In this document: positions 7,077 to 63,531 of the stretch, piece after piece
How positions within the stretch are numbered: position 1 is the stretch's first letter
Layout of the letters: each line of letters starts with the position of its first letter
Assembly (NCBI RefSeq): GCF_029784155.1
Contig: NC_073693.1
Location: forward strand, 154,539,442-154,603,441
Length of the DNA: 64,000 bases
DNA from: Uranotaenia lowii
Taxonomy: Eukaryota; Arthropoda; Insecta; Diptera; Culicidae
Reading direction: 5' to 3'
Notes under the pieces: model-generated
Seen by the model: the letters and a program-made list of their open reading frames with translations, nothing else
Database searches by the model: none
Told to the model about the DNA's origin: nothing
Program-made: the position numbers and the translations under genes

Positions 7077-7113
7077 CCGTCAAACGGGGCATCATGCTAC
7101 AGCGAGGTTAGAT
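7077..7113 (+). mobile_element. Left end of CCGTCAA-family element, interrupted
   Basis: Begins CCGTCAAACGGGGCATCATG, the family terminus. It runs to GGTTAGAT, where the hAT-type element at 7114 is inserted; the sequence resumes at 13083 with the duplicated GGTTAGAT. Uninterrupted versions of this junction are seen in the copies at 10758 and 13488. Confidence 0.75.
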
Positions 7114-7175
7114 TAGGGTTACCATACGTACTCTTTTAAGAGTACATGTACTCTTTTTCGACCGAGAAATGAGCG

Positions 7176-7364
7176 TGTGCATCTCCTTCGGCTCTCTTTC
7201 GGATGCGAGCTCTCTCGGCAAACCGTCATTGTTTGGCCACATCGTGATCCTTTCGCAAGCGCCTTGTCGTCGCGGCTTCGTCAGACAAGAGCCGATCGCG
7301 GACCAGTCAAGTCGAGTCGCATTCTTATTCTTGCGCATCGTCGTGCTTAAAAGTGAGTCTCACA
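7176..7364 (+). repeat. 5' LTR of the 2.9-kb element
   Basis: 189 bp, TGTGCATCTCC...GTCTCACA, identical to 9911-10099. Confidence 0.88.
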
Positions 7365-7612
7365 TTTTGGTGAACCAGCCAGGAGCGGACATTTTTTTTT
7401 TCGAGCGGTTTGAGTGAAAGCGTGAATAGCTCCCAAGCAGAGCAAACATATATTTAAAATCACAATATCGTCTGATTTGGAAACGGTAAAGGCGGTTATG
7501 GAAAATTTGGATATTAGGAAGAATGTGATTCAAGTGATAAGAAAACTTGTTTTAATTGTTTCTTTAGTGGAAAGGCTGACGCGCCATTGTTTCTTCGAAC
7601 TATTCTAAATTT

Positions 7613-7995
7613 TCCGGCGGATACCGGATTTTTTAGCTGATGCTCAAAATTAACTTGATTATTCAATAGTGCGGCGGATACCGACTATGAATTCAAGGAA
7701 TTCCGGCGGATACCGGACAAATTGTTGAGCGGATACTCAACAATATGACATAGTTCGGCGGATACCGACTATGTATTAGCATCATTCCGGCGGATACCGG
7801 ATGAATTGTATAGCTCTGATTGAAATAGTTCGGCGGATACCGACTATAAATTCTAGAAATTCGGCGGATACCGGATGAATTGTTGAGCGGATACTCAACA
7901 ATATGTTCCTTTATAAAATAGTTCGGCGGATACCGACTATAAATTTTAGAAATTCCGGCGGATACCGGACGAATTGTTGAGCGGATACTCAACAA
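7613..7995. repeat. Array of 12 hairpins sharing the loop CGGATA
   Basis: The octamer GCGGATAC occurs 12 times, starting at 7617, 7674, 7706, 7729, 7758, 7790, 7833, 7864, 7887, 7926, 7958 and 7981. Each copy is the closing pair and loop of a hairpin, but the stems fall into three unrelated classes. P is TCCGG/CCGGA (5 copies, one with TCGG), A is ATAGT plus CGG paired to CCGACTAT (4 copies, with one bulged base), and L is TTGTTGAG/CTCAACAA (3 copies). The order is P-A-P-L-A-P-A-P-L-A-P-L. Decayed L units sit near 7635, 7808 and 8005, giving an underlying P-L-A period of about 75-95 bp. The same array gives an open minus-strand frame (7693-7995), which I treat as a by-product. Confidence 0.85.
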
Positions 7996-9910
7996 TATGA
8001 CAATTTGTTGGACGAAAATTCAACATTTTCCCCGATTCGGGATACGGTACAAAATACTGGGTGGATGTTCACTATTAAGATGAAACTAGAGACTTAGACA
8101 GAGAGCATTGTAGGAAAGCAATGAGAAATAAGAAAATTATAGAGAATATTCATAGAGGTGAAATCAATAAAAAAAAAAAGTTGAAATATAAATTTGAACA
8201 TTTTTCGGAGTTAAAAATGAATTTTTGAAATGTGATTCTAAGGTGAGAAACTGGAAGCCTGAAATTTGAATTTTAAATGTGAATGTGGAATCCGAAGTTT
8301 GAAGTCATAAACCAAGATTTGCAAAAAGGTTTTTATATGAAATCTTATGCTAAATTCAAATGAAAACTGTTTGCTAGAAACTGGATTATTTGATCTGAGT
8401 TGGATCTTGAAAATGAAATGTGATTCAATATCTATGTTCAGATTCCGAGCATGCGATCCGAATTTAAATGTTGAATTAAGGAGCTAAGTATAAGCAAAAT
8501 TCTGAAAAAAATTAATCAAGAATTGCGGAAATCATAGAGCGGTTGTCAAATCTAGAGAGAAATCTGAATCTGATATTCAAATCAAGAAGTCTGAGTTCTA
8601 TAAGATCTGAAAATGAAAATGAAAGTTTCGAAGGCAGTATTTTAATCTGAAATCTCATATTCACAGTCTGTGGTTTGATTGTCAAACGGAAATATGGAGT
8701 CTGAAGTTCAATTCTCTAAATCTCAATATTGTTAGTACATTAAGACTACATTTTGAGGTCGGAACCCAAAAAAATTGATTTAATAATTTGGAATTCGAGA
8801 TCCAAATCGGCATTTTGAAAACTGAATCCGAACTGAAAAGACGAAAAAATCTGACATACAAACTTCCAAGTAGATAAAAACCGAATTATAACATCAATGT
8901 CAAATATATGAATTGAATTTAGAAATTGAGATTTTGAAATATGTGTTGGCAGCCAATCTTGAAGCCTTGGTCAAATTTTAAAATCAGAGCAGAATCTCAA
9001 AGTGAAGTACTGCCAGTTATTCAAAAGAAGAATTAATGAATTATGAGTTTTACTGGCATAGAAGTCGTGAATATGTGTTCGAAAAGAATATGAAAAAGAA
9101 TAAGTAATTCAAGAGAAGGCATGGAGAGGAATGAAGATTTAAAAAGTTATAAAATACACTTTCAAAAAAACATTGAAAAACAAACATCTTGATTAAGCAA
9201 ATGGTATCGATGAAAAAAAGATAAAGATCATAAAAATTCGAATCACTCGATTTCTATGAATGTACACGTGTAGTCGTAACGAAAGTACATTCCCATATTG
9301 AGGTGACTGTTTTTGGAAAAAGTGGAAACTGGACATAAAGTGAAAATGATAGATTCACAGGATTTAACAATTTCACTTGAAATAGAATGATCGAAGTTTT
9401 GATCTGAAAATGGTGAAGAAATGAATAAACACATAAAATGTTTAGTAATTGATGAAACAAATATTGACAAAACTGATAAAATAACGACAGATAGTTAGCT
9501 AGGAAGAAAAGGAATAGTTGTAAACGAATTGTCGAGTAGAAGGTAGACGAGCTACATAGTTTTTTACATACTTGTATGTTTTGCCTCGATCGATTAAATT
9601 AATTATTGTCAAATACTTGATCAAATAAAGCAATATGCCAAAGAAAATTTTTTCAGTAGGTTATTATGTCATTTTATTGAAAAGACGTAGTAGAAATTAT
9701 CCTTTTATAACACGTTTTGTGGAGAGAAGGAGGAAGAAGTGAAACAGAAAATACCTCCTGTCGTTTATTTTCATTTTTTAAGGGAGAAGGAGGAAGATGT
9801 GAGATAGAAGAATATCTATCTTGGTTATTTCCCTAACGAGTCATACAATGTCAACTGGCAGCCCAGTTTGCCAGCCATCGAATATCTCCTTCCGTCGATA
9901 TATTTGCCTC

Positions 9911-10099
9911 TGTGCATCTCCTTCGGCTCTCTTTCGGATGCGAGCTCTCTCGGCAAACCGTCATTGTTTGGCCACATCGTGATCCTTTCGCAAGCGCCTT
10001 GTCGTCGCGGCTTCGTCAGACAAGAGCCGATCGCGGACCAGTCAAGTCGAGTCGCATTCTTATTCTTGCGCATCGTCGTGCTTAAAAGTGAGTCTCACA
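9911..10099 (+). repeat. 3' LTR of the 2.9-kb element
   Basis: Identical to 7176-7364; followed by the duplication GAGCG at 10100-10104. Confidence 0.88.
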
Positions 10100-11381
10100 G
10101 AGCGTACTCTTCTTTTCGTGAAATCTTGAAAGGAATTTTATCAGAGAAACGAACTTATTTTTTCCAGTTCTTAAATTTATGTTCCTATGTGTACAAGAAG
10201 TCTGAAAGAAAAGCAACACTTTATGCATTCGTGGCACGGTACTTCAGGTTTCTCTACTTTGTTGAGTTTTCTAAACAATGAATAAAAGGGGAAGCATAAC
10301 AAATCGATTAAAATCTAAATTTTTCGTAAAAATCATCATCAGCAAAACGTTTCTATAAAAAAAATACAACAACTTCGAAAATTTTAAAACCGCTTTTGTC
10401 AAAAGCTTCTCCCAGTCGTCGAAATAAACTGTGCAGATAATCAGCGCGTTTGAATATGTCATTAGCATCCAAACAGTTGGCAGAGAGCACAACAGTAATT
10501 TGAACTCTTTTTGAAATGCAACGTTTTCTCATGTTAGCGATGTTCTGATCTATATCACTTCGAATAATTCAACGTCCCTTTTCAGTAAAAATCTGCAAGA
10601 AAATGAACAAAAACTAAAAATGATAACTTTCAATTTGTGAAAGTATTTTCAGCCATTTTTGCCAGGTAAGCCACATAACTAGTAACTAATTGTCACTTTT
10701 TGAATAGCTTTAAATTTCCTGTTTCTTCTAAATATTTTGAAAAATAATTTCAACGTACCGTCAAATGGGGCATCATGCAAAAGCAGGGTTAGATGCAACA
10801 TTTGTATACCACAACACTCATTCAATTTTTATTTCAATATACTGTAATAAAGTTATCATTGAACGATAAAAAATCGATGATGACATAGTTTTTAACATCG
10901 TGAAAGAGTTTTTTAAGGTTTTTAATTCTCACAAAAAATTTAAAAAATCTAGCAATAGATATACAATTTTTTACATTTTTCGATGCCTTAAGAAACTTTA
11001 CTTAGTATGACGAATTGGCTTAACGATATCACCTACAAACTTTATATTGCTTTCATTATCCTATACCAACACTGTTGGTGTATAAAAAGTTTTCGGACAA
11101 TCTCCAATTTTTTTTAAATAAATAGTTTTATAATTCAGTAAGCCGTCTGTGGCAAAATGCAACAAAATGCAAATCAGAACTAAATACCATAAATTGCGTT
11201 TCTATATGCTGGGATATGATTGTTTTGCATCATGCGTTTGATAACATTAAAATTTCATCCATCCTAAGATTTATTTACATGATTTAAGATAATAGAATAT
11301 TTTGTAGTATTTTTGCCAAAAATGTATGCAGCAGATTAACACCCTTTGCTTAAAAACATTTTTGACAGAAAAAATGGGAAA

Positions 11382-12042
11382 CCCGATCAGGAGAGCATAT
11401 CAAAATAATAACTCAAACGTATCTCACCTAGATATTTACATCTGATTCAGTTATAATTAAGTACTCCAAATTTTTGATTTTAAGTTTCTCTAATCTGAAT
11501 TATATCTTATTCTGATTGACAAACTTGAATGGGGTTGAGCTCATGTTCAATGATCAAGATTTTTTTTCGGATTGTCCTAAAATAAAATGATTATATCTTA
11601 TTTTGATATACGTACAACTTTTTCTGAAACACGGACATCGAAGTCAACGGCTCAAACCTTACATAAACGAATTTCGCTCAACAAATTCATAAAATTGAAT
11701 CAAATTTTTGGGAAACCAAAAATGGGGCATGGTTTTATTAAATAATGTGGTTTATTGACTTTCCACTAGAAAATTTTCTCGAAGCACTCATATCTTGATA
11801 AGTTATAATTTTGATATAATTTGTTCTGTCCAATATCAAACTATGCTATCTGAACAAGATATAATCTTGATAGGAGCATATCAAAAACTGATATAATTTA
11901 GCTATGATCGTATAGATTTTTTGATATAATTTGAGATATTTTAACATCCTACGAGTACTGAATTATAACTCATTTAGATAGAAAAAAATAAGTATCAAAA
12001 TATCTCATTTTGATATAATTTTGTTTTTCCCTCCTGATCGGG
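11382..12042 (+). mobile_element. CCCGATC-family MITE, copy 1 of inverted pair
   Basis: 661 bp bounded by CCCGATCAGGAG and CTCCTGATCGGG. Aligning its flanks to the related sequence near 26930 (minus strand) shows that removing the element plus two bases restores a gap-free alignment, so the target duplication is AA. No coding capacity. Confidence 0.8.
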
Positions 12043-12087
12043 AATTCAATTCGAACAAAACCAAAACACTACTGCAATTGGTGCTTT

Positions 12088-12747
12088 CCCGATCAGGAGG
12101 GAAAAACAAAATTATATCAAAATGAGATATTTTGATACTTATTTTTTTTCTATCTAAATGAGTTATAATTCAGTACTCGTAGGATGTTAAAATATCTCAA
12201 ATTATATCAAAAAATCTATACGACCATAGCTAAATTATATCAGTTTTAGATATGTTCCTATCAAGATAATATCTCATTCAGATAGCATAGTTTGATATTG
12301 GACAGAACAAATTATATCAAAATTATAACTTATCAAGATATGAGTACTTCGAGAAAATTTTCTAGTGAAAGGTCAATAAACCACATTATTTGGTAAAACC
12401 ATGCCCCATTTCAGGTTTCCCAAAAATTTGATTCAATTTTATGAATCTGTTGAGCGAAACTCGTTAATGTAAGGTTTGAGCCGTTGACTTCGATGTCCGT
12501 GTTTCAGAAAAAGTTGTACGTATATCAAAATAAGATATAATCATTTTATTTCAGGACAATCCGAAAAAAATCTTGATCATTGAAAATGAGCTCAACCCCA
12601 TTCAAGTTTGTCAATCAGAATAAGATACAATTCAGAATGGAGAAACTTAAAACCGAAAATTTGGAGTACTTAATTATAACTGAATGAGATGTAAATATCT
12701 TGGTGAGATACGTTTGAGTTATTATTTTGATATGCTCTCCTGATCGG
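12088..12747 (-). mobile_element. CCCGATC-family MITE, copy 2 of inverted pair
   Basis: 660 bp, nearly the exact reverse complement of 11382-12042, with the same ends and TT flanking (AA on the element's own strand). The 45 bp between the copies (12043-12087) are host-element sequence, recognisable from 13279-13310 and from the minus strand near 26920. These are therefore two insertions, not one foldback element. Confidence 0.8.
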
Positions 12748-13082
12748 GTTATGCGTCATGACATCACAAATGTATCAAATACTATAAATTTTCAAACGTT
12801 TTCATTTGATTTTTTATTAATTACAGAGTTTGTTGCAACTTACCCCTTTTTCTTAGTAGGGTGAAAATCGCATGTTTTTGTAAATTTAAAATTAACTGGT
12901 TAAACCAATAATTTTTCTGACTACTTTAGTTTGGTGTCTCATCAACCTTAAACTTTTGATGTACAAGAGGTATGATTATCTGTAAGCATTAAGATTTTAG
13001 AAGCCTTCGAAGTTGAAAATTGGTGCATGTTGCCCCAGTTGACGGTATACTCTTTTTGGCGTTGAAGGATATGGTAACCCTA

Positions 13083-13487: not shown

Positions 13488-13950
13488 CCGTCACGCGGGG
13501 AATCATGCAAGAGCAGGGTTAGATGCAACATATGTATACTACCACACTTATTCAATTTTTATTTTAATATTATGTAGGTAATTATGAATTCATTCAATGA
13601 TAACAAAATGATGATGAAAAAGTTTCGCGCATAGATAGTGAGGTAGTTTTTTGAAGTTTTTGAATCTCATAGAAAATTAAAAAATCGAGCAATAGATACA
13701 ATGCAAATTTTTACATTTTTCGATGCAGTAAAAACATTACCCAGTATGACGGATCTTCATAATGAAATAACCTACAAACTGTATTTTGCTTTTAATTACC
13801 ATATACTGTTAGTGTAAAAATATTTTGTATGATTGTTTTGCAACACGTGTATGTTAATTTCAAAATTTCACCTATCCAAACATTAATTTTACTGATTTCA
13901 GCTAGTAGAGTTTTTTGTAGTTTTTTACGCCTAAATGTATGCAGCACCCA
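13488..13950 (+). mobile_element. Further CCGTCAA-family copy, right part missing
   Basis: Begins CCGTCACGCGGGGAATCATG and keeps GGGTTAGATGCAACAT uninterrupted, so it is an empty site for the hAT target. It aligns with the interior of the copy at 10758 as far as the words ATGTATGCAGCACCC at about 13935-13949, then stops against the candidate exon. Confidence 0.65.
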
Positions 13951-27364: not shown

Positions 27365-28114
27365 ACTATCTTATGCCATCTTATGCCAACACTACGAAAG
27401 GAATGCAGCATACAACAAAATAGCCTAAATAGCGCCTTTGGCTATGCAAATAGTAATCATTATGCAATAAATTTAGGAATTGTACAAACATATTTTAAAA
27501 GGAAATTCATAATTGCCGTGTAAGTCACATAACCTCCAAGACATTGGCAGTATTTGATTGATTTGAAATATCTCGGTGCCATCTCAGATAACACGAAATG
27601 TGTAAAGCAGAACCCCGCTTATCCGGGCTCTGGTTATCCGAGTCACCATTTTTATACAAAATCCATGTAAAATGTATTTTAACATCGCGATATATTGTTG
27701 AGCTTTACAATCGTCGTTTTTTTTGCATGTTTGAATTTGCGAGAAACGTCAATTAATTAGAAAAAAAAATTCATGTAAGAACCGAACTATGCGCCTGGAT
27801 GATATGCAACACTACATCAAAAGAATAGGGTTTGTCAATGTATTTCGTTTAATCCGAGGATTCACTTATCCGAAGTGGTCCCTCCCCCGACTACCTCGGG
27901 TAAGCGGGGTTCTACTGTACACCTTTTTGCATACCTTCCGGGCGCATAGCTCGATTAATATATGGATCTTGTGGATCCTGATGGCTGGTATAACGTGGAA
28001 GCTTAGAAAAATAGTGTTCGTATAAGCGGGGTTCTACTGTTAAACGTTTCTCCTTACATTTGGATAAATGATCTCAATGTACTCTTCGTGGCGTTGCGGG
28101 ATATGGTAACCCTA
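27365..28114 (+). mobile_element. hAT-type fragment of the TAGGGTTACC family
   Basis: The right end ATATGGTAACCCTA at 28101-28114 is followed by ATCTAACC, the complement of GGTTAGAT, as target duplication. Interior words match 981-2015 (AAAACTACGAAAGGAAT, GCGCCTTTG, TATGCAAATA). The left terminus is missing. The pogo-like MITE 27608-27917 lies inside. Confidence 0.6.
27608..27917 (+). mobile_element. pogo/Tigger-like MITE
   Basis: Ends CAGAACCCCGCTTATCC and GGTAAGCGGGGTTCTACTG are inverted repeats, and TA follows the right end (27918-27919). Such ends are typical of pogo-like elements. A third terminus-like word, AAGCGGGGTTCTACTGTT, occurs at 28024, suggesting a second nested end. No transposase. 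Confidence 0.6.
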
Positions 28115-28389
28115 ATCTAACCATGCTGTTGCATGATGTTCCGTTTGACGGTATCGAAGATTTCTGCTCTATTTAAGGACGGAACTTAACGAAATTTTGG
28201 GAACACATTTAGGTACTATGAATAGGAAAACAAACTTGTTGTTTTTGGTTTTCATTGAAGTTTGTTTTGTTATTTTACGCAAGATCCACTTTCGTTGCAT
28301 CAAATCAAATGATTTTCTTGCAACGAGGTTTTGCAACTGATGCGAGGCAACGGAGATGGTAGCACTGGCTTTTTATCTCGAATTGTTCT

Positions 28390-32431: not shown

Positions 32432-32969
32432 CAGGATGACCAAAAACAAAATTGACAAAATTGATGAAATTGACAAGATTGACAAAATCGACAATAATAA
32501 CAAAATCGACAAAATTCACAAAACAGACAACATTGACAAAACTTAGAAAATGGCAAGATTGACAAAATTGACCAAATTAACAAAATTGAAATAATTGACA
32601 AAAATGACAAAATTCACAACATTGAATGGAAAAACTGACAAAATCGAAAAAATCACAAAATTCGCAAAATTGACGAAATTGACCAAACTGACAAAATTTA
32701 CAAGATTGACAAAATGGACAAAAATGACAAAATGACACAATTGACAATATTGACAAAATTAACAAAATCGACTAAAGCGACAAAATCGACGAAATTCACA
32801 AAGCTGACAAAAACGATAAAATTGACAAAACTGACAAAATTTAAAAAAAATGACTAAACTGAAAAAAATGGACAAAACTGACAAAATTAACGAAATTGTT
32901 AAAATGGACAGAATTGAAAAAATAGGCAAAATTGGCAAAATTGACATAACAAATTGACAAAACTTATAA
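32432..32969. repeat. Satellite of about 9-bp unit GACAAAATT, left part
   Basis: Variants of ACAAAATTG repeat about 55-60 times with substitutions, so translations show F-C-Q-F-C-Q patterns that are not genes. The array continues at 38305 after the LTR element. Confidence 0.9.
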
Positions 32970-33513
32970 TGTTCAGTCCGACAAGCGGACTGAGAAGAGA
33001 GCAAAAGGAACGAAAGTATAAAAACGCACGCTCCCGCGCGTTGCATCATCAGTCTTTATTCAACCACCATCGCGGCAACATCGATCCAGGGAGATCGAAA
33101 GAGAAGGAAGAGAAGAGTCAGCCAACAGTGGCCTTCTCCGAGGCCACCCGAAGAGGAACAAGAAAAATAATAAGAGTGAATAAGTGTAAATAGTTCGAGA
33201 AAGAAAATAAATCCAGAATGTTACACCGTGAGTAATATTTGTTGTTCCTCTGTGCTTCCTCCTCACTTGCTTCCGATCCAATCGGCTCTTATCAGAGCCC
33301 CCCCTTATAGAGTTTAGTTCGCGATCACTGTGGTGACGGTGATCGATCGGCCTTGGCCTCCAGGCAGCCAGTCCGAGGACCTGCCTCCACTGGTGAGACA
33401 ACCACCATCGGTTGTCTAGGAGAGGCTCACTCCTACGAGGGGAGTGAGTCCCATCAGTGGTTGTTTTGCCAAGCGCCTGCCCTACAGTCCAATGGCTTTT
33501 CATGGCCACAACA
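32970..33513 (+). repeat. 5' LTR of BEL-like element
   Basis: 544 bp. It lacks about 50 bp present in the 3' LTR just upstream of the TATA-like box (AAGTATAAAAACG at 33016). It contains a histone-type hairpin, GGCTCTTATCAGAGCC, around 33283-33298 and an AATAAA at 33207-33212. Confidence 0.85.
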
Positions 33514-33648
33514 TGAAATGGTCCTTCGAACCGGATAGAGTATCCGGTACCTTTTGACGAAAAATCTTCGTCATTCAGTTGAGAAAGAGGATCGTGAAGC
33601 AAAGTGTTGCGAGAGAGGCATAGAGGAAGCAAAAACCAACAAGAGAAG

Positions 33649-37133: not shown

Positions 37134-37962
37134 TGAGTATCACCAAAAGATTATTGCCCTGTCGTCACCAGCCGACCGAGAGCAGTAAGACGACATTTAC
37201 TTTGAGTTCGTGGCGCTATACGAAGAGGTATCCGTGGCAATCGAGAGTCGGCTCGAATGGGTTCGAGCACTGCCAATTCAACAGCCACAGCCTGAGAGTT
37301 GCCAGCGACAATTGGTCCCCCGAGAAAAGGCGAGTCTTCCACCGCAGGATCGCAACAAGGTCGAGCGATCCAAGCAATTGGGTCCAGCAGAAGCGAAAGC
37401 CATACCAGGTTTAGCAGCCCGGGTTCACACTTCATCAAGTGAGCCATTTACAAGCAGTGTGTCGCCGAACATTGCTGATTCGAACGTTCCAGATAGTTCG
37501 TCGAAAGTTCCAGAAAGTTCGTCAAAGGTTCCAGAAGGTTCGACGACAACCACCAACCGCGGCTTCATGCCAGGTTCAGCAGCTCGGGTTCACATTCCAG
37601 CAAGCGAGCCACTGACAAGCGGTGTGTCGCCGAACACTGCTGATTCGAAGGTTCCAGAAAGTTCGACGACAACCACCAGCCGGGACAACTTCTCACTTTT
37701 CGGTGGGGAGTATGTTCAGTCCGACAAGCGGACTGAGAAGAGAGCGAGAGGGGATGAACGCGAGAGGAGCGCCAACCAATCAGCGAGCAGCAGCCGACGG
37801 AACGAAAGTATAAAAACGAGCTCTCCCGCGCGTTGCATCATCAGTCTTTATTCAACCACCATCGCGGCAACATCGATCCAGGGAGATCGAAAGAGAAGGA
37901 AGAGAAGAGTCAGCCAGCAGTGGCCTTCTCCGAGGCCACCCGAAGAGGAACAAGAAAGATAA
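37134..37962 (+). pseudogene. gag C-terminal part of BEL-like element
   Basis: One frame runs from about 37134 with a single in-frame TAA at 37186-37188, then stays open to 37962, 250 bp into the 3' LTR. It encodes an acidic/aromatic start (F-V-A-L-Y-E-E-V-S-V-A-I-E-S-R), then a Ser/Pro/Thr-rich region with two imperfect repeats (A-A-R-V-H-T/I, S-E-P, V-P-E-S-S). Reading directly from gag into the LTR without pol shows that pol was deleted before or during formation of this copy. The Y-H-Q motif near its start also occurs in the N-terminal piece, so the two pieces may overlap rather than join. Confidence 0.55.
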
Positions 37963-38304
37963 TAAGAGTGAATAAGTGTAAATAGTTCGAGAAAGAAAAT
38001 AAATCCAGAATGTTACACCGTGAGTAATATTTGTTGTTCCTCTGTGCTTCCTCCTCACTTGCTTCCGATCCAATCGGCTCTTATCAGAGCCCCCCCTTAT
38101 AGAGTTTAGTTCGCGATCACTGTGGTGACGGTGATCGATCGGCCTTGGCCTCCAGGCAGCCAGTCCGAGGACCTGCCTCCACTGGTGAGACAACCACCAT
38201 CGGTTGTCTAGGAGAGGCTCACTCCTACGAGGGGAGTGAGTCCCATCAGTGGTTGTTTTGCCAAGCGCCGCCCTACAGTCCAATGGCTTTTCATGGCCAC
38301 AACA
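37713..38304 (+). repeat. 3' LTR of BEL-like element
   Basis: 592 bp; otherwise very similar to the 5' LTR, with TATAAAAACG near 37810 and the hairpin GGCTCTTATCAGAGCC around 38075-38093. Confidence 0.85.
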
Positions 38305-38690
38305 TATAAAATTAACGATATTGACAATAATGACTAAATTGACAAAATTGACAAGATTGACAAAATTGACAAAACTAACAAAATTGACTAGATTTACTTA
38401 ATTTACAAAATGTACAAAATTTCCAAATTTCCAAAATTTACAAAACTCAGAAAATTTACAAAATTCATAAAATTCACAAAATTTTCAAAATCTACAAAAT
38501 TTACAAAATTTCCAAAATTTACAAAATTTATATAGTTGACAAAATTGACCAAATTGACAAACTTGAAAAAAATTGACAGTATTGACAAAATTTACAAAAT
38601 AACAAAATTGTCAAAATTTACAAGATTGAAAAAAATGGTGGAATTGTAAAAACTAACAAAAATGGCAAATTGAAATAATTAAATATATTG
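38305..38690. repeat. Satellite of about 9-bp unit, right part
   Basis: Continuation of the array at 32432-32969 after the BEL-like element, with units ACAAAATTG, ACAAAATTT and variants. Confidence 0.88.
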
Positions 38691-44929: not shown

Positions 44930-45372
44930 TCATTTATTATTAAGTCAAACTATGTAGACTACAATACTTAAAACTACTTAAAACTAATGTAAGCTATTTT
45001 GTTGTTCTATGAAGTTGTTTTTGAATGCCTTTTTCAATTGTGTTTTGTTCATCGCTACGTCTATAATTTCACTTTGTAAATTGTATTTGTACATCATTTG
45101 ATTAATAGATTGATGTTTTGCATAGTCTTTCTTTGTCGTAAAGTTTAATGTAGAACAAATGTTTATTTCTTAATGGACGAGAGGGTGCGTAAAAATTTAG
45201 TTTTGAAAGTAATTCAAGACTGTCTATTCTTTGTGTAACAACATCATTTACAAATGCAATTTGGGAAAATTCTCTGCGTTTACTGAGAGGTTCTATATCT
45301 ATTTATTTGACGTCAATCATTTGCGTAGACCGTTTTACATGTTTGCCTTAAATCTATATAAGTATAATGTTA
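44930..45372 (-). pseudogene. 3' fragment of a LINE related to the neighbouring one
   Basis: Minus-strand translation matches the last about 90 residues of the frame at 45370-47040. Examples are R-R-E-F-S-Q-I-A-F-V-N-D-V against R-R-E-F-A-M-L-A-F-I-N-D-V, and A-M-N-K-T-Q-L-K-K against T-M-N-K-N-E-L-K-R. A frameshift lies near 45118 and further decay near 45310. It is a second, older 3' end lying directly downstream of the larger copy in the same orientation. Confidence 0.65.
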
Positions 45373-47080
45373 TGATAGAAGCACTCTCTTCAGTTCATTT
45401 TTGTTCATTGTTATATCAATTATGGTGCAGTATTTGTTATAGCAGATCATGATCTTATTTATAGGTCCATTTTGGGCATAGTTTGTTCTTTGTTTATTTA
45501 TGTAGAATAGATTCCTGTTTCTTAAATACCGAGTGGGAGAATAAAAGTTAAGTTTTTCTAAAATGTTTGCATCATTTACTCTTTGCCCAATAACATCATT
45601 TATAAAAGCTAACATTGCAAACTCACGTCGTTTATCAAGACTATCTATTTTAATTAACATACATCGAGATTCATACGAAGGTAGCTGATACGAGCTCCAA
45701 CCTAACCTGCGTAAAGCATATAATAAAAACTGTTTTTGTACTGACTCAATGCGGTCTTTATGTGTACCTTGATATGGAGCCCAGACAACACTGCAGTACT
45801 CAAGAAGGGGCCTAACATATGTTACATACAGTGTTTTGATGGTATAGGGATCATTGAATTGAAAACTAAACCTTTTTATAAACCCGAGCATATTACTTGC
45901 CTTGTAAATTATGTTATTGTAGTGTTCTACAAAGGTCAGTTCAGAATCAAGTATGACTCCTAAGTCTCTGACTTGATTGCATCTTTCAACAGATTTTTGA
46001 CCAATGGTGATGGTGTCCTGTCTTACATTTCGCTTTTTAGTAAATGAGATTGAGATGCATTTTTTTACGTTTATCTCTAGCAAGCTTTTTGTACACCATA
46101 CATAAAAATTATCAACTTCTCTTTGGAAGGATTCAATATCAGATGGTTTACGTATTTTCATGAAAAGTTTCATGTCGTCTGCATATATTAAAACATTTAA
46201 ATGATTTAAAATGTGTTCAACATCATTGACAAATAAAATAAATAGTAAAGGACCCAGATGGGATCCCTGTGGCACTCCTGATGTAACATGCACAACAGAC
46301 GACAAATTTCCTTCAAATCTTACTAGTTGCGTTCTTCCGTGCAGGTATGACTGAACCCACTTTAATAATTTATGATTGAAACCTATTCTAGATAATTTGA
46401 AAAGCAATAAAGGAATATCAACTCTATCAAATGCTTTGCTAAAATCAGTATATAATGTTTCAACATAATTCCCTTCATCTATGGCATTTATCGAGAAATT
46501 TACAAAATTTAGTAAATTGGTGGAAGTAGAACGTCCTCTAATAAAACCATGTTGTTTAGTAGTGATTGCATTTTTAACTTGAGAAAAAATGTGTTGATTA
46601 ATTATTGATTCAAATAACTTAGGGATGCAAGATAATATAGCAATTCCACGATAATTTTTAACATCTGACTTTTTGCCGGTTTTGAAAATTGGAACCAAAT
46701 ACGATTCTTTCCAAATGGGGGGTAGTATGCCGCTTTTTAAAGAGGAATTGAACAACCAAAACAAGGGTTTCACTAACTCATTTGATAATGATTTCAAAAA
46801 TATTGGCGGCAATCCATCAGGACCTGCCCCTTTAGAGGCGTCTAAGGTGTTTAAAGAATTCAAAATTTCATTGGGTGATACATTATCAACAGTGATATTT
46901 AATGAAGATTCAGGGAGATACGAGAAATAATCATAATCTCGATCCTCTTCATTACGGGTTGTGTAAACATCTTGAAAAAAATTAGCAAATAAGTTACTGA
47001 TTTCCGAAGGATTTTTGCTGATTTTGTCGTTGAACTGCATTTTTGTCGGAAAATTGCTAGACTTCTGTATATCTTTAACT
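45370..47080 (-). pseudogene. 5'-truncated non-LTR retrotransposon, RT frame intact
   Basis: A 556-codon open frame (47040 to 45370), which stays open upstream to the junction near 47080, encodes RT and the C-terminal part. Motifs in order: A-S-K-G-A-G-P-D-G-L-P near residue 70, Y-R-G-I-A-I-L near 130, Q-H-G-F-I-R-G-R-S-T near 165, D-F-S-K-A-F-D-R-V near 200, G-V-P-Q-G-S-H-L-G-P near 255, catalytic Y-A-D-D near 287, and a late R-P-L-L-E-Y-C-S-V-V-W block. The endonuclease is absent, consistent with 5' truncation during target-primed insertion. It interrupts the RT of the plus-strand LINE between Q-A-G-F and G-Q-S-V-K-T-A-V. Clade: CR1/Jockey-like. Confidence 0.8.
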
Positions 47081-47084
47081 AGGC

Positions 47085-48260
47085 CAAAGCGTGAAAACAG
47101 CAGTACTTCGGGTTTACGACTATCTTGTTTCTGCTGTGGATAAACAAAACTCTGGGGTCTTACTTTTGCTTGATTTTAGCAAGGCATTCGACACCATTTC
47201 ACACAAAAAGCTTTGCGAAAAACTAAACGAACAGTTCAACGTATCTTCCCCTGCTGTGAAGTTGATTTCGTCATACCTGACAAACAGAACACAAACAGTT
47301 TTTTGCGGCGATAAATCCTCTCGGAGCACACCTGTGACATCTGGCGTTCCGCAAGGGTCTATTCTCGGGCCTCTTCTTTTCACTTGCTACATAAACGATT
47401 TACCTAGTGTACTGCATCATTGTTCAATTCAATTGTACGCTGACGATGTTCAGCTCTACGCTGTTGACCGGAGTCAAAACTCACATGAACTGATCCGACG
47501 GGTGAATGAAGATGCCGAAAGAGTTGCTACATGGTGCTTTGGAAATGGACTTCTTGTGAATCAAAGCAAGAGCAAGGCTCTATATATTACGAAATCTAAG
47601 AGGCATGCTGCTTCTGGTGCTCTTCCTAATGTGATCATGAATGGCGAGCAAATTCTTTGGGTGAAATCGGCCAGTAACCTCGGTTACGTTTTCCATGAAA
47701 ACTTGCTATGGGATGACCTGGTCATGCAACAATGCGGTAAAGTCTACGGTTGCTTGCGCTCACTTTACACAAATACTTTTTCTGCATCAACTAATACGAA
47801 AATTCGTTTATTTAAAGCGCTGATCCTCCCACATTTTCTGTATGGAGATGTACTCCATGTTCGCCCTAGCGCTGCGACGTTACAAAGATTAAATGTTGCA
47901 TTAAATTGTTGTGTGCGGTATACCTACGGCCTAAACCGATACGATCGGGTGAGTCATCTACAAAGTAATCTTATCGGATGCCCTCTGAAAAATCTGTACG
48001 CCTATAGATCCTGTTTGTTCGTTAAAAAGCTTAGCTCAGCTCGTTACCCCCCCGCTCTATTCGAAAAGCTTACTAGTGCTCAAGGAAGCCGTTTACGAAA
48101 CTATGTTGTACCAGCCAATAGAACAGTGTTGTATGCGAACTCCCTTTTCGTCCGAGGTGTTGTGAACTACAATTCCTTACCACCTGAACTGAAGCGTTTA
48201 CAATCAGAAGCCTCTTTCAAGCGAGAATGTCTGAACTTCTGGAAACAGCACCAAAGTTAG
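47085..48260 (+). pseudogene. Non-LTR ORF2, RT catalytic and C-terminal part
   Basis: Third piece of ORF2, open to a stop at 48260. It includes L-L-D-F-S-K-A-F-D-T-I near 27, V-T-S-G-V-P-Q-G-S-I-L-G-P near 83, the catalytic Y-A-D-D-V-Q-L-Y near 117, and the thumb/C-terminal region ending F-W-K-Q-H-Q-S. It is followed by a 3' UTR of about 165 bp and the (CAAA)n tail. The catalytic core is intact but separated from the endonuclease and RT fingers by the minus-strand LINE. Confidence 0.75.
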
Positions 48261-53691: not shown

Positions 53692-54151
53692 AGGATGTAG
53701 CAGTATGGATAAAATCAAATAATTTGTATTTTTTTTACTTGAACATCCCTGTGACGATAGAATGAACACCTAGCTGAAAATAGCCATCCCTGAAAAAGCC
53801 GATAATCATTCTATTTATAGAACTAATGAACCAAGAGCATAGCCGAGTAAAAGAGAAATATTTTGGAGAGTAAACAATACTCTCGACGCACCCCATCGAG
53901 AGCGTGACGTCACGGAAAAACTCTTTTTCTTCGTAAAGCGGATCTGGGTGTTTTAAAGGGATTTGGCGAAACTTTGCTAGAGATATCGCCACCAGCTGAT
54001 GCATGTCCGGGCGTTGACCCCACCAGATGATAGGTCTTATGGTTGTATTGGTAAGAATCGGGAATTAGAATCTACACCCGAGATCGGATATCAATATCTC
54101 GGGTTGATTACCAGAAAAACATATGAAAAAGAAGAGGGTTTTTCGTGAACA

Positions 54152-54179
54152 TTCGTAATCGTTCGCTAACGATTACGAA
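54152..54179. other. Perfect 12-bp hairpin in 5' LTR
   Basis: TTCGTAATCGTT, loop CGCT, AACGATTACGAA. Repeated in the 3' LTR at 61955-61982. Role unknown. Confidence 0.8.
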
Positions 54180-54815
54180 GTTCCGGTCAGGAAATTAGAT
54201 GACTGTTCTGATCTGAGGGCTGATGCAAGTACTCGATCACTTTTCCTTGGGCTGTGGAGTAGGCTGGACTGCTAGTATTTTTTATTTCGGGTCCGCATTT
54301 GTACCACAAGGTACTTTATAAAAAAAAACGTGGGTTTTAATTTTTTTATAAAAATGTCTTTTTTAAAACCTTCCCAAAATAGAGTGCGATTAAGAGTGTC
54401 CTAAGTGCGAGCAATACCGTTGGGTGATAGCTCAAAGAGCAGAACACGGTAATTTTTAATGGTTTTTTGAGTGCGTTTTTCCCTGTAACTAATGTTTGAA
54501 ACGGATCAGGTACGAAGCCCACGCGAGCCTACAAACATCATCACCACCTGGTCCAAGGAAATCCACTGCGGGTCGACGCAGACCGTTACCGCCGAAGCCA
54601 CGCATCACGGCAGCGACGCAGTTTTCCCGACAACACCCGGCGACGACCATACCAGCATCGACAGCAGCAGAAACGACGGTCTGGGGATCAACCGAAAGTT
54701 AATTGAGGTTTGATTGCCCAGCAACGTGAGTACTCAAAACCATTTCTATATCATGCGCATGATCGGAATCCCATTTTGATTCCCTTTTTGGAAATTAATC
54801 TCCCATATGAGCAAA

Positions 54816-54889
54816 TAGCTCACTCGGCTACGTTCCCAGCTGAGGACCTAGAGGGCCCGGGTTCAATTCCCCTTACGGTATATTTTTTT
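54816..54889 (+). promoter_or_regulatory. tRNA-like Pol III A and B boxes in 5' LTR
   Basis: TAGCTCACTCGG (54816-54827) fits the A box TRGCNNAGYNGG at 11 of 12 positions. GGTTCAATTCC (54860-54870) fits the B box GGTTCRANNCC. Spacing is tRNA-like (44 nt start to start) and a run of seven T follows at 54883-54889. A full cloverleaf does not fold well, so it is tRNA-derived or tRNA-like rather than a tRNA gene. The 3' LTR has the same at 62619-62692. Confidence 0.6.
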
Positions 54890-55725
54890 ATATACATAAA
54901 ATCCATGGTCCACCGATGAGGTTGGAATAACCTCCGGTGGTGTTAAAGAAAAACGCACCGTTTCCTGGTTAAGTAAAAGGAAACAAGAAAAGCACTCTCA
55001 GTTACCGACAGACAAATACCCCCATCCGGGGAAACTTTGGGAAGGTTTAGTATGCCTAGGCAGCGCTAGAGGCGCTAATGTAGAGTAGGAGAAATCTCTC
55101 AGAAGAAGCGTGTATGTAAACGGAAATTTATAAGCCCAAAACCACCCACCAAAAATGTAAACTTACACTCCCTACTAATCCAACAAACAACAAACCACCA
55201 CCAAGCAAATTAGGAAAATGTAAATAAATAATCAGTTGTTGCAACAAACGTTTTTCGAGCAAATAAACGATGTTTTTAATGAAAGGTTAAAGTTCACGTT
55301 TTTTTTTTCGGTTGTTCGGTAGTTTTTTTTGAGTAGGGTTGACTCTAGCTTATTCTTTTTCTTTTCCTTCCAACCCCTTTCCAGTTTCCGAAGCAATCCT
55401 GGGGAATTTGTTCGGGGAAAGTGGGTCCGCTGAAGATAATTCTGGAAATATAGTTTTTTCCAGTTAGTTGATATTTTTTGGCCAACCGAACAACCAGTCT
55501 TAGTTTTCGTGTATTTTTCGACCAATTAGTCTGGGATATTGTTGGATGGTCGACGGTTGAGGTCGGTAGGTTGAGTCTGATCTGGGCCAATACAATATAC
55601 ACCCACCCTATGTTGGGTCTCAAAAGCCGGGCAAGCTTTCAAAAGGTGGCTGGTCTCCTCGGAGTGGCGCTTAAATCATCCGCTAACAACCCAGATCCCA
55701 ATTCGCCCACTGCCTCCCGTTGCAG

Positions 55726-55738
55726 TGGCGCCCAACGT
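55726..55738 (+). other. Primer binding site, tRNA-Lys type
   Basis: TGGCGCCCAACGT, one base after the LTR end, is complementary to the 3' end of animal tRNA-Lys (CTT) including CCA, as in Osvaldo-like elements. This is where minus-strand DNA synthesis would start. Confidence 0.8.
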
Positions 55739-56131
55739 TTTAAAGGCACGAATAATCATAAGAGTTGGTATTTTTCTCATTTAGTTTTTTTTTCGGCTAA
55801 GGAAAATAGAATTTATTTTTCTTTTTGAACTTTTATTTTTGCATATTTTTTTTATCGTTGCCTTATTTAATACTAGCTAGTTCTTATTATTTTAAAAATA
55901 CAATTATCAGATTGTACAAACGGCTTGGGGAAATAGATCAATTTTTTTCCTTCAAATATTTTTTCCCATATTTACATTCTTTTTCATATTTTTGGCTATT
56001 TTTTTACTTTTACATATCTTTAGTTCATTCATTTCTTTAAATATACATTTTTTTTTTACACATATCCTTAAGTTTATTTTTACCATTTGCTACGTTTTTG
56101 TTAATCACAAGTTCTATTGATTTAATTAAAA
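55739..56131 (+). other. 5' leader of gypsy-type element
   Basis: AT-rich untranslated leader of about 390 bp between primer site and gag; no ORF of note. Confidence 0.6.
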
Positions 56132-57961
56132 ATGGATCGTTTTCCGTGTGCGGAACATTTAAACAATGAAGAGGTAAACTACGAGTTACAAATACGCGGT
56201 AGATTTGGGGATGTAACCAAGAGTCTCGATTTAGCAGGAAAGCAAAGGCTTTTAAGAATGATTTTTCGCGATGACTTGTCAAAAAAACAAAACTATCAGT
56301 CAAGTGAATCAGTGTCTGATTATTTTTGCCTCCTGGGGGAACAGTTGTCCAGCATCGAGAAATCTATTCATCGGAAGAAGATGGATGCAAAAAATGAGTC
56401 CAGGTTGCTGCATTATTGGTATCGAGCTAAACGACTGCAGGCAGCTTCTGAAGACCAGAAGAAGATGCGTAGGGATTTAGTTCGGCGTATCGAAAATGTG
56501 ATGAGCGCAAATAAAGTGGTCCTTCCAACAACGCCCATGAAAGAGCAGATCCGGGAGCTTCTCACTCAAAATATTACAGCTCCGGGAACCAGTAACCACG
56601 AACAAACCGGAAACCCAAGGAATAGTCTAGGGACGATTCCAAAACCGACTGCAACTCCTGCAAGGACCGAGGTAAAGGATCCTGTGGACCAACGTCTCAG
56701 TCATATGGAGGAAATGATAACCGCCATGTGGACATTGATGTCAGACTCACAAGGAAACCGTACCAACTCCCACGAAACTCCAAGCTCTAGCAAATGGACA
56801 CAACACCAATTTAACACTAGCCCAACGGTTCGGAAAGGACATCTAGAGGACGACGAAGACGAAAGTGAAGAAGACGATTCATTCTACGATGCCAAGAGGG
56901 ATAACAGAACCAGGGACAAAGACAGAGGATATGGCCAGAGCGATTCGGAATCGGAAAGCCATAGAGACTACAGGCCACGAACTCGGCATGGAGGTAGGGG
57001 GGATGATTCGCATCGCGTAGAAAAATGGAAGATCAAATTTTCGGGGGATTCTCGCTCACTTAGTGTGGAGGACTTTCTTTACAAAGTTGACAAACTATCC
57101 GAAATTGAAGGGGTTCCCAAAACTAGGTTGTTACGAGACATCCATTTGCTTCTAGAGGGATCGGCCTCCGACTGGTTTTTTACGTACATAGACAATTTCC
57201 ACTCATGGGACAATTTCGAGAAGCTGATGAGAACCAGGTTTGGTAACCCTAACAAGGACCAAGGGATTCGTCTAAAGATTCACAATCGAAAACAGCAAAG
57301 GGGCGAATCTTTTATCGCGTACGTTACCGAGATCGAAAAGCTGAATCGTATGTTGTCGAGGAGAATGTCTAAAAGAAGAAAATTCGAAGTCATTTGGGAC
57401 AACATGCGACATCACTATCATGGCAGAATTTCTGTGGTAGATGTTGAAAATTTGGACCATTTGATAAAGCTGAACCATAAGATCGATGCAACAGACCTAT
57501 CCCTACAAGCTTCTTGGGACCCTCAACCTCGGCGCGGAATCAATAACGTTGATGTGGGTTCAGATCCAGAGGAAAACGAGAAGTCAGCAGACGTGAATGT
57601 GATGAACAGCCGTTCATACCACCAAATTTCGAAGGGGACGAATCTGTATCATCAGCAGACACCACCGCCGAAGACTTATGGACCACAACAACAAGCTAAC
57701 CACGCACCCGTTTTCCAGCAGCAACAACAAGCTAACCAACCACCCGTTTTCCAACAGCAACAGCAATTTTCCAACAATCACCTTCCAACAAAAACCGCTT
57801 GTTGGAACTGTCAACAGGAAGGACACGGATGGAGAGATTGTTCGAGGCCAAGAGTAATATTCTGTTTTGGTTGCGGTAAACTTGGTCGCACCATTCGAAC
57901 ATGTGAGAGTTGTTCTGCGAAAAATTACGCAAGAACAAGTCGCCAACAACAGGGAAACTAA
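56132..57961 (+). CDS. gag: Gag protein of gypsy-type element
   Basis: 609 codons from a clear ATG. Residues 1-50 hold the insect-gypsy N-terminal pattern (E-V-N-Y-E-L-Q-I-R-G-R-F). Residues 60-150 are helical and charged, 230-300 are acidic and low-complexity, and a capsid-like block lies about 300-450 (K-I-K-F-S-G-D, then D-W-F-F-T-Y-I-D, then F-E-K-L-M-R-T-R-F). A Gln-rich run precedes two knuckles: C-W-N-C-Q-Q-E-G-H-G-W-R-D-C (about 557-570) is a proper CCHC, while C-F-G-C-G-K-L-G-R-T-I-R-T-C (about 578-591) has Arg in place of His. Gag assembles the particle and packages RNA. The frame overlaps pol by about 50 nt in the minus-one frame. Intact and recently inserted, so it may be functional. 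Confidence 0.85.
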   Translation: MDRFPCAEHLNNEEVNYELQIRGRFGDVTKSLDLAGKQRLLRMIFRDDLSKKQNYQSSESVSDYFCLLGEQLSSIEKSIHRKKMDAKNESRLLHYWYRAKRLQAASEDQKKMRRDLVRRIENVMSANKVVLPTTPMKEQIRELLTQNITAPGTSNHEQTGNPRNSLGTIPKPTATPARTEVKDPVDQRLSHMEEMITAMWTLMSDSQGNRTNSHETPSSSKWTQHQFNTSPTVRKGHLEDDEDESEEDDSFYDAKRDNRTRDKDRGYGQSDSESESHRDYRPRTRHGGRGDDSHRVEKWKIKFSGDSRSLSVEDFLYKVDKLSEIEGVPKTRLLRDIHLLLEGSASDWFFTYIDNFHSWDNFEKLMRTRFGNPNKDQGIRLKIHNRKQQRGESFIAYVTEIEKLNRMLSRRMSKRRKFEVIWDNMRHHYHGRISVVDVENLDHLIKLNHKIDATDLSLQASWDPQPRRGINNVDVGSDPEENEKSADVNVMNSRSYHQISKGTNLYHQQTPPPKTYGPQQQANHAPVFQQQQQANQPPVFQQQQQFSNNHLPTKTACWNCQQEGHGWRDCSRPRVIFCFGCGKLGRTIRTCESCSAKNYARTSRQQQGN

Positions 57962-59241
57962 AACAGGGGTTTGAAGTTGGGAGTTCAAACACCCCTGAGC
58001 AACATTGTGTTCCCAAAACTCCAGAATTCGACCCATTATTAAAAATTCATCATATTAGAATAAATACGAATAAATGTCCACATATCCGTGTTCAGGTTTT
58101 CGACACTGAGATCAACGCTCTTCTTGATTCAGGGGCTGGGATAAGCGTAACAAATTCAGCCGAATTTGCCGAAAAGTATGGCTTGGAAATCCAACCTGCA
58201 GCAGTAAGGGTAAGCACAGCGGACGGAACTGAATACCGATGTTTAGGGTACTTAAATTTACCTTTTCAGTACAAAAGCATAACTCGAGTTATACCTACAA
58301 TCATCGTTCCCCAAATCTCAAGAAAGCTGATTCTAGGAGCTGATTTTTGGGATAGTTTTGGAATCCATCCGATGATCGATGTCGGAAATGGACTCGAGAA
58401 GCTTGAAACCTCAGACACGGTACCAAACTCTCAAATTTGTTTCAACATCGAGCCATCAGATGAATTCCCTAACCTCACCAAAAATGACTCCGACAGCACA
58501 CTCGATATTCCAGCTTTCGATATACCAGAAGAACCAATTCCGGAAAATATAGAAACTGAACACGAATTACTCGAGCAGGAAAGAGCAGAATTAATCGAAG
58601 CAGTGAAGGAGTTTGCTTTCACAGCGCCCGGAAAACTCGGCCGAACACACTTGATTGAGCACGAAATTGTGCTCAAAGATGACGCCAAACCACGAAATCA
58701 ACCTGTTTACAAATGTTCACCGTACATACAAAAAGAGATCGACGCGGAAATCGAGAGGTTTAAGGAGCTGGGAGCTATAGAGGAATGTTATAGCGAATGG
58801 ACGAATCCACTCGTGCCTGTCCGGAAGTCGAATGGCAAGATCCGAGTTTGTCTCGACTCCAGGCGAATAAATGCAATGACGGTGAAGGATTCTTATCCGA
58901 TGCAGAACATGCAAAACATATTCCATCGTCTTGAGTCAGCCAAATACTTCTCTATTATCGACCTCAAGGACGCGTACTTCCAAATTCCACTGAAGAAAGA
59001 AAGCAGGAACTACACCGCCTTCAGGACCTCTAAGGGACTTTTCCGGTTTAAAGTTTGTCCCTTTGGGGTCACCAACGCGCCTTTTACGATGTGTCGGCTC
59101 ATGGGAGCAGCTCTAGGATTTGATTTGCAGCCCCAGGTCTTCGTCTACTTAGACGACATAGTCGTAGCCACGAAGGATCTAAGTGAACATCTGAGACTAT
59201 TAAGGGAAGTACCTCTCCCAGGATCGACGATTCCAGGGTGA
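57907..59241 (+). pseudogene. pol: pol, protease and truncated reverse transcriptase
   Basis: Open from 57907 (after TGA at 57904) in the minus-one frame relative to gag. No good ATG at the start, so expression needs frameshifting, possibly at the A5 run 57920-57924. Aspartic protease motif L-L-D-S-G-A-G near residue 73, and I-L-G-A-D-F-W near 145. The RT block follows: L-V-P-V-R-K-S-N-G-K-I-R-V-C near 295, F-S-I-I-D-L-K-D-A-Y near 340, and the catalytic F-V-Y-L-D-D-I-V-V-A near 411-420. The frame then runs into unrelated residues and stops at 59241. The usual thumb, RNase H and integrase are absent, so the product cannot replicate the element. Confidence 0.8.
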
Positions 59242-61430: not shown

Positions 61431-61481
61431 TTCGAAAATTTGATTGGAACAAACTACGTTAGTTCCAATCAAATTTTCGAA
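61431..61481. other. 20-bp perfect inverted repeat before 3' LTR
   Basis: Arm 61431-61450 (TTCGAAAATTTGATTGGAAC) is perfectly inverted at 61462-61481. The 11-nt loop can pair further (AAC with GTT). It ends 17 bp before the 3' LTR, near where the polypurine tract should be. Confidence 0.8.
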
Positions 61482-61498
61482 AATCTAGTGAGGAATGA

Positions 61499-63527: not shown

Positions 63528-63531
63528 AGGA

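Follow-up and report, generated by a model that had tools for sequence, protein, structure and literature searches.

In the present work, a window of 64,000 nucleotides of contig NC_073693.1 from Uranotaenia lowii (the whole stretch of DNA that was analysed, positions 154,539,442 to 154,603,441 of the forward strand) was followed up, and we asked what could make use of a cluster of twelve predicted hairpins that display the same CGGATA loop on different stems within an LTR element that has no evident gene.

The carrier element and its surroundings

The window has a GC content of 36% and is rich in eukaryotic retroelements. The array is carried by an LTR element of 2.9 kb (7176-10099), whose LTRs, with the ends TGTG and CACA, are identical over 189 of 189 bp, and which has the 5-bp target-site duplication GAGCG on both flanks. 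The host repeat that is interrupted by the carrier was found unsplit at 829-902, with 67 of 74 positions identical over the junction. The insertion is recent, as can be seen from the identical LTRs, the duplication and the unsplit paralogue. The longest frame that lies fully within 7365-9910 has 114 amino acids, as determined from open frames alone, and a frame of 157 amino acids starts at 9808 and crosses the 3' LTR into the flank; there is no evident gene in the carrier. These observations align well with the initial, sequence-only reading of this locus, which described a protein-less but recently moved LTR element with the array about 250 bp after its 5' LTR, the distance being 248 bp. Among the properties by which LTR elements of this kind are recognised, near-identical LTRs, a target-site duplication, the lack of coding sequence and an internal tandem repeat were all found in the carrier. 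Its features are as follows.

7171-7175, no strand: 5' target-site duplication GAGCG, read from the sequence
7176-7364, + strand: 5' LTR of 189 bp, identical to 9911-10099
7368-7385, + strand: PBS-like site beginning with TGGTGAACC, three bases past the 5' LTR, read from the sequence
9911-10099, + strand: 3' LTR, identical to the 5' LTR
10100-10104, no strand: 3' target-site duplication GAGCG, read from the sequence

The PBS-like sequence suggests that the carrier lies in the + orientation, and its letters may correspond to a tRNA-Arg primer site. The tRNA-Arg primer class was found in 11 of 38 gene-less elements of Culex, according to PMC3286476. No polypurine tract was found beside the 3' LTR, where only nine of the final 30 bases (9881-9910) are purines, and the nearest purine-rich stretch stops approximately 100 bases upstream of this LTR; the adjoining tract is missing although the carrier otherwise looks freshly inserted. 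Just before the 3' LTR, there is also a hairpin of seven pairs, one of which is G.U (CTGGCAG/TTGCCAG, 9855-9874).

Several other repeats were observed in the window. An autonomous-looking gypsy-type LTR element (53692-63531) has LTRs of approximately 2.03 kb that are 99.9% identical, AGGA on both flanks, a gag frame (56126-57961) and a protease-RT frame (57907-59241), both of which were assigned using Pfam, as well as a PBS-like TGGCGCCCAACG, which is presumably of the tRNA-Lys type. The window also has a non-LTR reverse transcriptase frame (45370-47175); among the 120 matches listed for it, the closest were at 77% over 96% and 87% over 57%, and the list also contained Brugia timori (62-63% identity), Malaya genurostris (60%, with 62% of the query covered), Culex quinquefasciatus (59%) and Haematobia irritans (44%); those to Brugia timori are possibly due to vector DNA in the respective records. 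An inverted repeat at 11380-12750, which is a fold-back element, consists of three joined pieces that are 96-100% complementary, with arms of approximately 665 bp and a spacer of 41 bp, and one of its arms has a 91% copy at 1-508. A direct duplication of 508 bp (33007-33514 and 37799-38305) is 98.8% identical, and near it there are two arrays of a 9-bp repeat of the ACAAAATTG type (32446-32946 and 38308-38634). Finally, a dispersed repeat with a core resembling CCGTCA..GGGGCATCATG occurs at 7077-7113, 10758-10794, 13488-13524 and, on the minus strand, 28102-28151.

Hairpin classes and the conservation of stems and linkers

The motif GCGGATAC has 13 matches in the window against an expected 0.63, a number that was reached in none of 100 shuffles, and 12 of them lie on the + strand at 7617-7988. 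All 12 sit in inverted repeats that are closed by a Watson-Crick stem, which bears out the claim of twelve such hairpins in about 370 bp, and together the hairpins span 384 bp. Because they were found using the exact 8-mer, the invariance of the loop is partly definitional; in the same way, the closing G-C pair is identical in 12 of 12 hairpins but belongs to the search motif. The uninterrupted stem runs, the closing pair included, are 5, 3, 5, 9, 4, 5, 4, 3, 9, 4, 5 and 9 bp long. When one bulge was permitted, 5-10 Watson-Crick pairs were found in 11 of the 12 hairpins, the exception being the copy at 7864, which has three, or six when T.G is counted.

The stems belong to class A (TCCGG/CCGGA, five copies), class B (ATAGT-bulge-CGG/CCG-ACTAT, four copies) or class C (ATTGTTGAG/CTCAACAAT, three copies). 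The sequence-only reading had named the same three classes and called them unrelated, which is not the case for A and B; the inner three pairs CGG/CCG are common to both, and GAG/CTC is found only in C. The repeating order that it had described can be given as A0 followed by four B-A-C units, except that the C slot of unit 2 has decayed (A0, BAC, BA-, BAC, BAC), and the loop motif is retained at 12 of 13 hairpin positions. The units, each 84-94 bp long, follow one another in tandem with near-constant linker lengths (13, 13, 12 and 13 between B and A, and 3 between A and C). Copies of the same class are tandem duplicates, and so the array holds approximately three hairpin designs rather than 12 independent ones. 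The features of the array, all on the + strand, are listed below.

7613-7628, + strand: hairpin A0, TCCGG-CGGATA-CCGGA, an inverted repeat with a closing-pair probability of 0.37
7631-7649, + strand: X1, a possible degenerate hairpin with the loop CTGATG, pairing not above chance, own best fold differs
7666-7688, + strand: hairpin B1, inverted repeat
7702-7717, + strand: hairpin A1, inverted repeat
7721-7744, + strand: hairpin C1, ATTGTTGAG-CGGATA-CTCAACAAT, inverted repeat
7748-7774, + strand: hairpin B2, inverted repeat of ten pairs with one bulge
7782-7804, + strand: hairpin A2, inverted repeat of eight pairs with one bulge
7805-7828, + strand: C position of unit 2, decayed and without the motif
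7825-7847, + strand: hairpin B3, inverted repeat
7859-7876, + strand: hairpin A3, inverted repeat preserved via a T.G wobble
7879-7902, + strand: hairpin C3, inverted repeat
7918-7940, + strand: hairpin B4, inverted repeat
7954-7969, + strand: hairpin A4, inverted repeat
7973-7996, + strand: hairpin C4, inverted repeat
8006-8025, + strand: X2, a possible degenerate C-type hairpin with the loop CGAAAA and a G.U pair, P 0.16
8053-8076, + strand: X3, a possible degenerate B-type hairpin with the loop TGGATG, P 0.04, own best fold differs

Across the classes, two or three kinds of standard pair were seen at each of positions 2-8 from the loop, and pairing stops at pair 5 in A0, A1 and A4 and at pair 6 in A3. 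Copies of one class show no more change in the stem than in the loop. The earlier proposal that the stem sequence is free while pairing and loop are kept holds between the classes, where pairs 2-8 vary, but fails within them; between the units, the hairpins are variable in only 2 of 63 columns when the decayed C2 is left out, compared with 10 of 16 columns in the linkers (Fisher 3e-7), and in 13 of 63 columns when C2 is counted (P 0.002). The identity between the copies is 61-62% for the linkers and 97-100% for the hairpins with C2 left out; for class C with C2 included, it is 77%. Since the hairpins were kept while linkers of near-constant length drifted, this comparison of the units favours selection acting on the hairpins.

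As a control, we used the loci with a minimum of three consecutive copies of GCGGATAC (58 viral and at least 118 prokaryotic), which were not selected in any other way. These loci are tandem repeats, and the control is rough in that most of them appear GC-richer than the window. Among the matches listed for 176 loci, a stem of at least 3 bp was present in 47 of 718 copies, and 538 of the 718 had no pair past the closing one. Three of the loci with longer stems were examined, of which one lies in an Ala/Ser-rich frame of a viral contig (L075) and two are uniform tandem repeats (L048 and L049). The probability of three stem types around a given motif by chance is approximately 3e-10 if the classes are independent, an assumption that does not fully hold for A and B. 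The degenerate copies were considered as proof of covariation and rejected, their pairing being not clearly significant against random substitution (P 0.29 for X1, 0.16 for X2, 0.04 for X3 and 0.49 for C2). In their likeness to the classes, X1-X3 reach 18 and 17 of 24, and 15 of 22, which is borderline with respect to chance; among the random copies, at least 17 for C was reached in 3 of 200, and at least 15 for B in 3 of 200.

In the context of 7365-8200, the first hairpin had a predicted closing-pair probability of 0.37, and the other 11 reached at least 0.91. The fold z-score of the array was -5.6 for the plus strand versus -10.1 for the minus strand, and when folded singly, 11 of the 12 hairpins were favoured on the minus strand by 1.5 kcal/mol. 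The PBS-like site, the wobble pairs in A3, X2 and X3, and the better folding of A3 and X1-X3 on the + strand speak for the + strand as the RNA. X1 and X3 take other structures when folded singly. Judging by these predictions, folding alone does not settle which strand would be the RNA. A minus-strand frame of 108 amino acids (7693-8019) crosses the array, where the A and C hairpins shift its phase and the B hairpins do not; no relative of it was found among 5.8 billion proteins. A protein-coding repeat was rejected, the motif occurring in all three + frames.

In viral contigs, the exact B 17-mer and C 16-mer were found at 4 and 21 loci, respectively, none of which is an array; of these 25 loci, 22 hold one GCGGATAC and three hold two that are widely spaced. 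A 21-mer of the carrier LTR had no matches in the viral contigs. When compared with 5.8 billion proteins, the frames over the array yielded 133 candidates, none of which passed at E 0.1, and the frames over the carrier LTR yielded no candidate. No Rfam family reached the gathering score for the array, and no retroelement array of fixed-loop hairpins is described in the listed titles and abstract openings. LTR elements that lack genes and contain tandem repeats are already known (PMC3286476), and the part that looks new is only the array of hairpins with a fixed loop.

Candidate readers of the common loop

Packaging signals are usually located shortly after the 5' LTR. The predicted stem-loops are placed between the PBS-like site and the body of the element, as they are for packaging signals of the retroviral type, and a loop that is repeated twelve times, 248 bp past the LTR, is what a multivalent docking signal could look like. 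Our tentative answer, which we regard as a real possibility that falls short of probable, is that the array would serve, in RNA form, as a docking signal recognised by a protein that the element obtains in trans, most likely Gag from a helper LTR element, a choice that comes from position and logic. A trans-acting factor would be needed because the element has no evident gene and none of the three + frames is free of the motif or holds all of its copies, and helper Gag would be the first choice because a gene-less element cannot do without packaging. In such a mechanism, a + strand transcript of the element would carry the array, its inverted repeats are predicted to fold into twelve hairpins that display the common CGGAUA loop, and the trans-acting protein, foremost helper Gag, would bind these loops many times over; the bound RNA could then be packaged into the particles of another element and copied. 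Hairpins with a loop motif are known from parechovirus packaging, and GACG loops occur in retroviral leaders, as reported in PMC5431903 and PMC516450.

Several observations speak against the docking signal. Folding favours the minus strand, the 3' LTR has no polypurine tract next to it, and the tandem copies are not independent. The sequence-only reading had looked to an autonomous LTR element for the same hairpin; the window contains a single autonomous-looking LTR element, and it lacks the GCGGATAC motif. Moreover, the repeats of the gene-less Culex elements are reported in PMC3286476 not to be family-specific, which weakens a packaging role because a signal needed for packaging would be expected to be specific to its family. 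A dimerisation signal, which had also been suggested, is disfavoured as far as loop-loop contacts are concerned; the loop is not self-complementary and a loop-loop duplex reaches only -0.9 kcal/mol, and the kissing dimer was rejected on these grounds. Extended duplexes (A-A, B-B or C-C) gain 1.8 kcal/mol each over a pair of separate hairpins. The array is a compact, testable candidate for the handle by which gene-less LTR elements would enter helper particles, with a single six-base loop that is repeated at every site.

It is rather unlikely, though worth weighing, that the loops are instead bound as GAUAC by a host protein of the Spen family (Split ends or the Spenito/RBM15 type), in the manner of SPEN on the XIST A-repeat, either for export of the gene-less RNA, a task that the RTE has in mouse IAP, or for silencing. 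The RTE of mouse IAP elements is said to be essential for IAP mobility, going by a title cited in PMC2674570, and RBM15 is presumably a Spen-family protein. RBM15 links the IAP RTE to Nxf1 (PMC2674570) and ERV RNAs are bound by Spen (PMC7282817). The 9-mer GCGGAUACC is common to the array and the human XIST A-repeat and covers the GAUAC site that is affected by SPEN binding, and GCGGATACC is also shared with the A-repeat text (both from PMC10870365). In the XIST text from the same source, CGGAUAC occurs six times and GCGGAUAC three times, and only 23 of 65,536 8-mers occur at least three times, a proportion that is subject to a large post-hoc discount because the match came from searching papers for the loop; the string CGGAUA occurs 30 times in PMC10870365. 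A platform of the XIST type has GAUAC in at least four repeats, and the array has 12 copies. However, the CATCG/AUCG hairpin of the A-repeat is absent, with no ATCG on either strand of 7596-8010; the comparison crosses phyla, from mammal to insect; and a silencing signal would damage the element itself. The stronger proposal, that the array is an XIST-A-repeat-like platform in which GCGGAUACC/GAUAC in the common loop of twelve hairpins recruits a Spen-family protein, and that this RNA code stems from a retroelement signal which is older or has been invented repeatedly, and which here moves or restrains a parasite of parasites, appears distinctly improbable. If the likeness to XIST were true, it would tie the RNA of an insect retroelement to the Spen pathway of mammalian X inactivation.

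A neutral tandem repeat, in which a unit with three related quasi-palindromes was duplicated, the arms were matched by template switching and no function is served, is unlikely. It would agree with the tandem nature of the 84-94 bp units, with stems that do not drift freely, with an array that is known from one locus only and with repeats being common in the gene-less Culex LTR group (PMC3286476), but not with linkers that diverged while the hairpins, the decayed C2 apart, stayed nearly identical, or with three stem designs around one loop, which would be improbable by chance if they were independent.

We give still less credence to an array of zinc-finger sites that acts in DNA as an insulator or enhancer like that of gypsy, which, according to PMC2374998, has 12 Su(Hw) sites with AT-rich spacing in approximately 340 bp of the 5' leader; the number matches, span, position and spacing are similar, and the Culex authors proposed regulatory roles for such repeats (PMC3286476). 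On the minus strand, the three C copies and one further stretch of the array agree with the gypsy consensus at 10 of 12 positions, such matches averaging 1.2 per 404 nt over both strands of the whole window, but they lack the core TGCATA, which occurs zero times on either strand of the array; the + strand scores 8 of 12 against the YRYTGCATAYYY gypsy sites at the 12 motifs, and a protein site would leave the class-specific inverted arms unexplained. A Smaug-type loop was rejected, CNGG being absent.

Comparison with known systems

The closest likeness of the carrier as a whole is to the cqUNK group of Culex, of the LARD/TRIM class. According to PMC3286476, which reports 38 LTR elements of Culex that lack genes, contain tandem repeats and have no master copy, the two agree in the 2.9 kb size, the 189-bp LTRs, the 5-bp duplication, the PBS-like site, the lack of evident coding sequence and the internal tandem repeat. 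The LTR identity of cqUNK is over 98% and that of the carrier 100%. However, cqUNK has a polypurine tract beside the 3' LTR, which is absent from the carrier, and because this tract does not adjoin, we did not file the carrier as a member of cqUNK. The word “hairpin” does not occur in the main text of PMC3286476.

Among the RNA signals, the parechovirus GxU loops and the retroviral GACG loops likewise combine different stems with one loop motif and a contact of protein or dimer at the loop; the parechovirus hairpins are dispersed, whereas those of the array are near-identical copies clustered in 384 bp. The human XIST A-repeat resembles the array in its tandem short GC-rich units, AT- or U-rich spacers, GCGGAUACC and the conserved GAUAC, but has an AUCG hairpin that the array lacks, and GAUAC in the array, which belongs to a likely insect retroelement, spans the terminal hexaloop and its closing base. 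The Drosophila gypsy insulator, with 12 sites in approximately 340 bp, also lies in the leader of an LTR element and differs in that the array has no TGCATA core and its sites lie within inverted repeats. Finally, the mouse IAP RTE is, like the array, a structured cis element of an LTR element, one that is read by a host protein, but it is a single element of 226 nt, in contrast to the many hairpins of the array.
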